In this document: positions 1 through 57,393 of the stretch, one piece after another | Layout: every line of letters begins with the position of its first letter | How positions within the stretch are numbered: position 1 is the first letter of the stretch | Made by a program: the position numbers and the translations under genes | NCBI GenBank assembly: GCA_009781315.1 | Contig: WQYI01000007.1 | Location: forward strand, 1 to 64,000 | Direction of reading: 5' to 3' | Length of the DNA: 64,000 nt | Origin: Candidatus Endomicrobium embiratermitis | GTDB taxonomy: Bacteria; Elusimicrobiota; Endomicrobiia; Endomicrobiales; Endomicrobiaceae | The notes under the pieces: model-generated | What the model was told of the DNA's origin: nothing | Databases searched by the model: none | What the model saw: the letters and a program-made list of their open reading frames with translations, nothing else

Positions 1-388
<388 letters not shown>

Positions 389-24216: not shown

Positions 24217-24376
24217 ACATTCTTGTCATTCCCATGATACTGCGACTTCGCGCAGCACGGGAATCCATTTTTACTAAAAACAATACTTATTCCTTATGTC
24301 TTTTAATAATAACGTGGATCCCCGATTACGAACTTCGGGGATGACAAAAGAGAAGATTTAAAACCTGCTTTTGTCA
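24217..24376. repeat. GTCAT/ATGAC-ended element, copy 1 (aroA-plsC gap)
   Basis: GTCATTCCC..GGGAATCCATTTTTACTA, then TTCCTTATG..TTTTAATAATAAC, then GGATCCCCGA..TTCGGGGATGAC, then AAAAGAGAAGATTT..CTGCTTTTGTCATTT. It aligns closely with 25664-25820. Its last GTCA holds the aroA stop codon (minus strand TGA). Confidence 0.8.
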
Positions 24377-25654
24377 TTTGCTTACCTTTTTCAAAAGTTC
24401 GTAAAAGTTAGGAAACGAAATATTCACGCAGTCCGCGTCTTTTATCGTCATATCTCCTGCCGCGGCTAAAGACGCGACGGCCAAAGTCATAGCTATTCTG
24501 TGATCTTGGAAACTTTCGACCGTTGTCCCTACGGGTTTAAAATCCGGGCTGCCGTTTATAATCATTCCGTCTTCAAGTTCTTCAATTTGCGCGCCTGTTT
24601 TTTTAAGCTGCGAAACAACAGCCGTTATTCTGTCGCTTTCTTTAACCCTCAATTCTTTCGCGCCCGTAATTTTTGTCACGCCGACCGCCATAGCGGCAAT
24701 CAGCGCAAATACAGGAACTTCGTCAATCATTCTCGGTATTATGGAAGCGTCTATATTTACGGCTTTAAGTTTTGAATATTTTACGTTTATGTCCGCTGCG
24801 GGTTCGTCTGAAACATTCTTAACGTTTTGCAAAGTTATTTGAGCGCCCATTTTTTTGAGAACTTCTATAATTCCGTCTCTTGTCGGGTTTATTCCCACGT
24901 TTTTTACCGTTAAATCCGAGCTGGGCGCAATTAACGCCGCTGCTATAAAAAATGCGGCTGAAGATATGTCTCCCGGAACGCAAATTTCATTAGCGGCCAG
25001 TTTTTCCGCGGGATAAACGGTAACGGCATTACCGTCAACTTTAATTTCCGCGCCGTAAGCCGCAAGCATTCTTTCGGTATGGTCGCGGGATTTAACAGGC
25101 TCAATATATGTAGTCGCGCCGTCCGCGTATAATCCCGCAAGAATAACCGCGGATTTTACCTGCGCGCTGGACTTGCCGCTTTCATAACGTATTCCTTTGG
25201 GCGTTCCGCCCTTGATAATTAAAGGAAGTAATCCGTTGTTTGATTTTATATCCGCGCCCATTTGAGAAAGAGGCTCAATGACTCTTTGCATGGGTCTTTT
25301 AGAAAGGCTCGGGTCGCCGGTAAGCTTTGTTTCAAAATCCTGCCCGCAAAGTATTCCCGTTAACAATCTCGCGGTTGTACCGGAATTTCCGCAGTAAACC
25401 TCATTTTGAGGTTTAACAAGTTTTAAGCCTTTGCCCTTTATATATAAGGTGTCTTTGATACTTTTTATTTCCGCGCCCATTTGCCTGAAAGCGTCTATAG
25501 TCCTTAAACAATCATCCGACGGAAGATAATTTTTTATTACCGAATCCCCTTGCGCGATAGACGAAAACATAACCGCTCTGTGCGTTATGGATTTATCGGC
25601 CGGAACTTCTATTATACCTTCTATTTTGTTGACTTTTTTTAATGTTATGTCCAT
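24374..25654 (-). CDS. aroA: 3-phosphoshikimate 1-carboxyvinyltransferase (EPSP synthase)
   Basis: Shikimate pathway step joining PEP to shikimate-3-phosphate. About 426 residues. The N-terminal motif VPADKSITHRAVM, the LTGDPSLSKRPM loop, CGNSGTTARLL, and KESDRITAVV near the C-terminus are all canonical. The ATG at 25654 (MDITLKK) is the natural N-terminus. An upstream ATG at 25669 lies in the ATGAC end of a repeat and would add MTDKK. The stop codon TGA also lies in a copy of the same repeat type. Part of the pheA-hisC-aroF-tyrA-aroA run. Whether it is of the glyphosate-tolerant class was not judged. Confidence 0.95.
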   Translation of the reverse strand: MDITLKKVNKIEGIIEVPADKSITHRAVMFSSIAQGDSVIKNYLPSDDCLRTIDAFRQMGAEIKSIKDTLYIKGKGLKLVKPQNEVYCGNSGTTARLLTGILCGQDFETKLTGDPSLSKRPMQRVIEPLSQMGADIKSNNGLLPLIIKGGTPKGIRYESGKSSAQVKSAVILAGLYADGATTYIEPVKSRDHTERMLAAYGAEIKVDGNAVTVYPAEKLAANEICVPGDISSAAFFIAAALIAPSSDLTVKNVGINPTRDGIIEVLKKMGAQITLQNVKNVSDEPAADINVKYSKLKAVNIDASIIPRMIDEVPVFALIAAMAVGVTKITGAKELRVKESDRITAVVSQLKKTGAQIEELEDGMIINGSPDFKPVGTTVESFQDHRIAMTLAVASLAAAGDMTIKDADCVNISFPNFYELLKKVSK

Positions 25655-25663
25655 TTTCTTATC

Positions 25664-25820
25664 TGTCATTCCGGACTTGATCCGGAATCCATTTTTACTA
25701 TTATCGTCATTGCGGGCTTAACCCGCAATCGCTTCCTTATGTATTTTAACAATTAACATGGATCCCCGACTAAAGTACTCGGGGATGACAAAAGAGAGGA
25801 TTTGAAACCTGCTTTTGTCA
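25664..25820. repeat. GTCAT/ATGAC-ended element, copy 2 (tyrA-aroA gap)
   Basis: GTCATTCCGG..CCGGAATCCATTTTTACTA, an inserted GTCATTGCGGG..CCCGCAATCG hairpin, then TTCCTTATGTATTTTAACAA, GGATCCCCGA..CTCGGGGATGAC, then CTGCTTTTGTCATTT. Its end supplies the tyrA stop codon and its other end an in-frame ATG before aroA. Confidence 0.8.
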
Positions 25821-57284: not shown

Positions 57285-57393
57285 ACAATATCCCCGATTA
57301 AGCTTGTCCCCGAAATTTCCCCAATTACAAATTTTAGGGATAAACTCCATCGGAGCATGCCCGGGGGGATGACAAAACAAACCGACTTTGTCA
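57285..57393. repeat. GTCAT/ATGAC-ended element, degenerate copy
   Basis: TATCCCCGATTAAGC, ..CCCGGGGGGATGAC, AAAACAAACCGACTTTGTCA. It contains the DUF4912 stop codon (TGA in the terminal GTCA), as the related copies do for aroA and tyrA. Confidence 0.55.

Follow-up and report, generated by a model that had tools for sequence, protein, structure and literature searches.

The elements described here are probably non-autonomous pairs of REP hairpins placed with precision at gene junctions, with a TGAC-ended subtype whose boundary TGA is the stop codon of the gene reading in and whose presence mostly leaves the native length of that protein intact. They were analyzed in a window of 64,000 nucleotides, the whole stretch of DNA studied (contig C7, positions 1–64000), and in the 1.90 Mb genome of 25 contigs, from an Endomicrobium (Elusimicrobiota) of the termite gut, to which it belongs (G000; other G-numbers denote the genomes of relatives, C a contig and L a locus). 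By AroA identity the closest named relatives are Candidatus Endomicrobium labiotermitis (80%) and E. macrotermitis (82%), and orthologous junctions were compared at about 80% identity. Genes were called with a small home-made Markov gene finder, in which stops are fixed by frame and starts are soft, and element counts are based on stretches around pattern matches. At window positions 1–386 on the minus strand, Rfam identified a 16S rRNA gene cut at its 3′ end.

The four window copies recognized in the preliminary description were recovered (Table 1), and its account of a conserved middle with variable hairpin tips held: stems and tips differ between copies, and the stems stay complementary. 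All four copies consist of CGTC-type REP hairpins paired head to head, GTCATTCC..GGAATCC. The unit pattern, a hairpin GTCAT[T/C/A]SC..GS.ATCC with variable yet paired stems, was matched by 115 units genome-wide and by 0 with a reversed control pattern. The genome holds 59 GTCATTCC units with GGAATCCA, which agrees with a short CCA-consensus tail. For scoring, a unit required an 8-bp stem from GTC[AT..], in which one mismatch was tolerated (reversed control, 0). Among 107 scored units, all starting with GTC by pattern, the preceding base was T in 89 and C in 18, and loops measured 4 nt in 30, 5 nt in 31, 6 nt in 11 and 9 nt in 34. Close pairs of scored units were head-to-head in 24 of 26 cases. 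No Rfam family covered the elements at gathering score. Units per genome were patchy across the family, ranging from 0 to 464, which is consistent with mobility or loss. Five elements lie within called ORFs of G000 (C1:46652, C1:270540, C1:390300, C2:168882 and C2:193971), like the RPEs of Rickettsia. Other short repeats, GGGTCTCTTGAAAAA(CC), were seen beside elements at C12:2181, C14:14399 and other flanks of the same genome, where runs resembling AATTAGGAGTTAGGAATTA or AATTACGAATTACGAATT also adjoin them.

Table 1. Elements in the window and their parts
Feature	Position	Strand	Remark
Element A	24225..24376	.	Between aroA (stop 24374-24376) and plsC (native start 24205, minus strand)
REP unit of element A	24225..24265	+	Plain GTCAT end; ATGAC gives in-frame ATG 24229 before plsC
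REP unit of element A, GTCATCCCCGA..TCGGGGATC	24317..24345	-	Unit pattern search
Terminal palindrome of element A, TGACAAAAG..CTTTTGTCA	24342..24376	-	First TGA is the aroA stop
Element B	25665..25820	.	Between tyrA (stop 25818-25820) and aroA
REP unit of element B	25665..25689	+	Plain GTCAT end; in-frame, open ATG 25669 before aroA
Extra REP unit, GTCATTGCGGGC..GCCCGCAATC type	25706..25730	+	Within the spacer of element B
REP unit of element B, GTCATCCCCGA type	25761..25789	-	Unit pattern search
Terminal palindrome of element B	25786..25820	-	First TGA is the tyrA stop
Element C	35608..35732	.	Between pfkA and tyrS; REP pair without terminal palindrome
Decayed element D	57285..57393	.	Between DUF4912 gene (Pfam) and GH57/branching-enzyme-like gene
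Remnant terminal palindrome of element D	57370..57393	-	First TGA (57391-57393) is the DUF4912 gene stop

The TGA stops of aroA, tyrA and the DUF4912 gene do lie in a terminal TGAC, as had been stated, but the two ends of the element, previously treated alike, are different structures. GTCAT is the tag of a REP unit, and TGAC is the outer end of an additional terminal palindrome, TGACAAAAG..CTTTTGTCA, which is where the stop TGA sits. This palindrome has the form TGACAAAAGCAGGTTTTAAATCCTCTCTTTTGTCA. Its inner GTCA doubles as the tag of the adjoining REP unit, and its outermost TGAC complements the GTCA tag found at the base of the REP hairpin. A plain GTCAT end therefore gives no stop to a gene reading in. 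Most copies lack the terminal palindrome, element C among them, where pfkA ends 8 bp outside the element and an in-frame ATG precedes tyrS.

We examined 38 palindromes of the TGACAAAAG type. Some further arms were shorter and differed in sequence (GCGAAGC, ATCCGCAAGGAT and ACYTTAGT) but kept the TGAC..GTCA ends. Of 123 unit ends, 23 had complementary outer arms, where shuffled sequence would give 0.5. A TGAC 5′ of all GTCAT ends was considered as a general feature and rejected, the excess coming mainly from arm-bearing ends. Eight palindromes of our own genome carry CGAC instead of TGAC; none of these is entered by a gene, compared with 12 of the other 30 (Fisher p about 0.03, hand arithmetic). 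Outside TGAC ends that point to the 5′ side of a gene, a TTGACA-like sequence is immediately adjacent in 9 of 16 cases (raw count over the first 14 bases outside, one mismatch allowed), for example at G000 C16:7495, C6:58733, C5:17146, C22:2403 and C3:142789, and in places a TATAAT-like box follows about 17 bp beyond. Such elements may directly adjoin a promoter at its −35 box.

Stop codons coincide with the boundary TGA more often than reading frame alone would give. In our own genome 22 genes head for a TGACAAAAG palindrome, with 10 stopping before it, 7 exactly at the TGA and 5 passing through in another frame, which makes the stop exact in 7 of 12 boundary-reaching genes. In four relatives (G003, G001, G081 and G082), where the search pattern required TGAC, 3 genes stopped before the boundary, 12 exactly at it and 3 passed through (12 exact of 15 reaching it). 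Counting orthologous sites once, including the other arms and leaving out the three loci of the preliminary description, 17 of 24 unique loci from four species had exact stops, where 8 would be expected (1/3 by frame; p = 2e-4); the orthologous sites were grouped by eye and the loci are not fully independent by descent. A further exact-stop locus, C2:28499, comes on top of this count. Our own genome alone, likewise without those three loci, gave 8 of 15 (p = 0.09, not significant), and seven of its genes cross the boundary in other frames.

The position of these stops was compared with relatives by searching the flanks of 28 elements, as one joined query, in three genomes of the same genus, and 12 further loci in eight genomes. 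Orthologues were available for 19 exact loci. In 13 of these, the stop occupied the same codon column as that of an orthologue scored as element-free, and in the remaining 6 it was off by 1–5 codons in the relatives compared. The nearest element-free orthologue ended in TGA in 7 of the 13 cases and in TAA or TAG in 6; the TGA share exceeds genome usage (79/326, p = 0.02). The stop position is therefore native, and the codon itself is native in about half of the cases. The claim that the element supplies stops thus stands for the exact coincidence and fails for the position. The TAA and TAG codons of the nearest orthologues leave a pure TGA target unproven.

The window copies gave the same picture in detail. 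The aroA stop at element A falls in the same column in G001, G002 and G023, and the tyrA stop at element B does so in G001, G002 and G004, but there as TAA. Element B is also present in G003, where the REP unit farthest out towards aroA is missing (L073); at this locus the aroA start (AAAATGGAAATTACA) appears fused to the AAAAATGGATTCC of the element, and element B may form the aroA start region there. The place of the decayed element D is held by an intact copy at the orthologous site in G003 (L230). At the end of the DUF4912 gene in G081 (L259/L218) the boundary occurs twice in succession, TGACAAAAGTGACAAAAGCAGG, which looks like a second addition of the same end at a single stop codon, and at the same stop G082 has TGACGCGG.. 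with REP-like sequence. Some sites scored as element-free may be decayed copies, namely G082 at the DUF4912 gene and G001 at C23:6253. Cleaner element-free sites are G001 at aroA/plsC and at C4:25389, G002 at C23:6253, G000 at L212, and G015 and G023 at L216.

The element-free aroA/plsC junction of G001 reads GCGAATGAAAAAAG, with TGA and ATG overlapping as ATGA. In the window, both this stop and this start are retained, about 170 bp apart. Genes also overlap or abut in relatives at tyrA/aroA (G023), C23:6253 (G002), C1:388507 (G002) and C6:61846 (G001). Several junctions that overlap in relatives have been separated by the element, probably with translational coupling lost as the cost. The earlier remark that ATGA holds both a start and a stop is thus relevant in another sense, through overlapping junctions separated by the element. 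At about 80% identity no clean target-site duplications could be made out. Short repeats such as ATG(A) flank elements on both sides, but the genes themselves also require them.

Start codons behaved differently from stops. For 37 plain ends, a gene reading outward starts no more than 150 bp away; ATGAC shares the frame of that gene in 8 of these and is open in 4. Manual addition of plsC brings the in-frame count to 9 of 38, against a chance value of 12.7 (lower-tail p = 0.14). The in-frame ATGAC before plsC, aroA and tyrS is real locally but unrepresentative of the genome. PlsC and AroA of G001 begin at the ATG further downstream, which speaks against the upstream starts. ATGAC was rejected as a general start codon, its in-frame rate being at or below chance, and the element is no device for supplying start codons.

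In the account we favor, the elements are non-autonomous head-to-head pairs of CGTC-type REPs that are, or once were, mobile. The subtype with the terminal palindrome often sits precisely at the 3′ end of a gene with its boundary TGA as the stop codon, the upstream protein mostly keeps its native length, and the downstream gene retains a start further on, even where the genes of relatives overlap. The anatomy, the surplus of exact stops and the conserved stop column are observed directly. The precision would reflect insertion at or beside a stop codon or TGA site, beyond the mere survival of harmless insertions. That survival could by itself produce the pattern if elements landed anywhere, only intergenic insertions persisted in a compact genome and the TGA was used when the frame happened to fit. 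Such an origin would account for the intergenic position of most copies, for plain ends lying a few to 30 bp past stops, for ends facing gene starts at a distance of at least 36 bp, as if placed harmlessly, and for the lack of enrichment at co-directional junctions (78/97, or 80%, against 86% of gene pairs). However, a frame chance of 1/3 falls short of the 17 of 24 exact stops, and a native column hit in 13 of 19 is unexpected if any position near a gene end were tolerated. We therefore consider survivorship a rather unlikely explanation.

The TGACAAAAG palindrome might instead be an independent repeat of earlier origin, or a target palindrome next to which REP pairs insert, in which case its link to stops, for example as a 3′ end hairpin, would predate the pairs. 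There is a parallel in Halothiobacillus neapolitanus, where CGTC-1 dimers lie inside a 41 bp palindrome (PMC3733652), and at least one palindrome here, at C1:400507, has no recognizable REP alongside. Most of the 38 nevertheless lie next to a REP unit, intact or decayed, with which they have GTCA in common, and several element-free orthologous junctions have no palindrome, which makes a separate origin very unlikely. The idea put forward in the preliminary description, that the ends are shaped to give neighboring genes both stop and start codons, is extremely improbable: its local examples are true, but the ATGAC frames and the downstream starts of G001 contradict it, and plain ends cannot give stops.

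How precise placement would be achieved was considered by analogy with IS200/IS605 elements, whose ends combine a target tetranucleotide with a guide sequence (PMC6006769). The arrangement TGAC-linker-GTCA-hairpin resembles such an end, and the tetranucleotide 5′ of the hairpin foot could, hypothetically, pair with a flanking target tetranucleotide. By this analogy the GTCA tag might act as a guide choosing TGAC/TGA targets by base pairing, with the outer TGAC derived from the target, a possibility that we regard as quite improbable. Elements in G081 contain further internal copies of this inner sequence that lack TGAC (L210, L216 and L222), which fits a target-derived TGAC. If the guide reading were true, stop codons and ATGA overlaps would be natural landing sites, and the fit would be precise with neither gene lost.

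A search for Y1_Tnp yielded no mobilizing enzyme and, unlike IS200/IS605, no cognate HUH enzyme for these elements. The sole Y1_Tnp gene of our genome (L031, G000 C1:61416-64751) lies between inverted repeats TGTCAAGGGGACGTTGTTTTTGACA and was rejected as a cognate RAYT/IS200 transposase, since its ends are unrelated and are not GTCAT units. G003 and G023 had no Y1_Tnp match despite 80 and 87 units, respectively (stricter pattern).

Among known repeats the closest are the CGTC-tagged REPs, comprising the CGTC-1 and CGTC-2 families, which include dRS3 of Neisseria and RPE-6 of Rickettsia conorii, and found in several phyla without a dedicated transposase; the phyla named do not include Elusimicrobiota, the tag is CGTC, TGTC or CCTC, the stem has 8 or 9 bp and starts with AT, dimers are predominantly head-to-head with other arrangements rare, and loops are usually 4–5 nt, with others allowed in some species (PMC3733652). 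The units described here share with them the (C/T)GTC tag, an 8-bp stem starting with AT, the CC(A) tail, mostly head-to-head pairing, conserved spacers, a position near gene 3′ ends and the lack of an associated transposase in our Y1_Tnp search. They differ in belonging to a phylum outside the published list, in having many 6- or 9-nt loops and in the TGAC..GTCA subtype with its stop TGA. GTAG REPs also have paired hairpins and a terminal tag, and their termini often give the TAG stop of flanking ORFs (PMC3733652). Compared with GTAG REPs and REPINs with RAYT, however, our elements have another tag, no RAYT flanked by units, and unit-rich relatives without Y1_Tnp. Mycobacterial MIRUs insert at start codons and contain an ORF with a −4 nt coupling to the gene that follows (PMC12548453). 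The likeness lies in insertion at a gene junction where neighboring coding sequences stay usable, whereas here the precise junction is the stop codon, no ORF is carried, and element ATGs are in frame at or below the chance rate. This kind of behavior is not new, because GTAG REPs giving TAG stops and MIRUs at start codons have already been published. What is added here is the subtype, the phylum and the evidence from orthologue columns. For Endomicrobia, a search for an earlier description of these repeats led to genome-paper passages that mention only transposons and CRISPR (PMC11257099).

Our findings show how a compact genome can absorb insertions of 130–160 bp at overlapping or abutting genes without the loss of a stop or a start, and translational coupling is probably the price. 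The subtype that sits on stop codons, together with the element-free junctions of sister species, provides a handle on how CGTC-REPs choose their targets.
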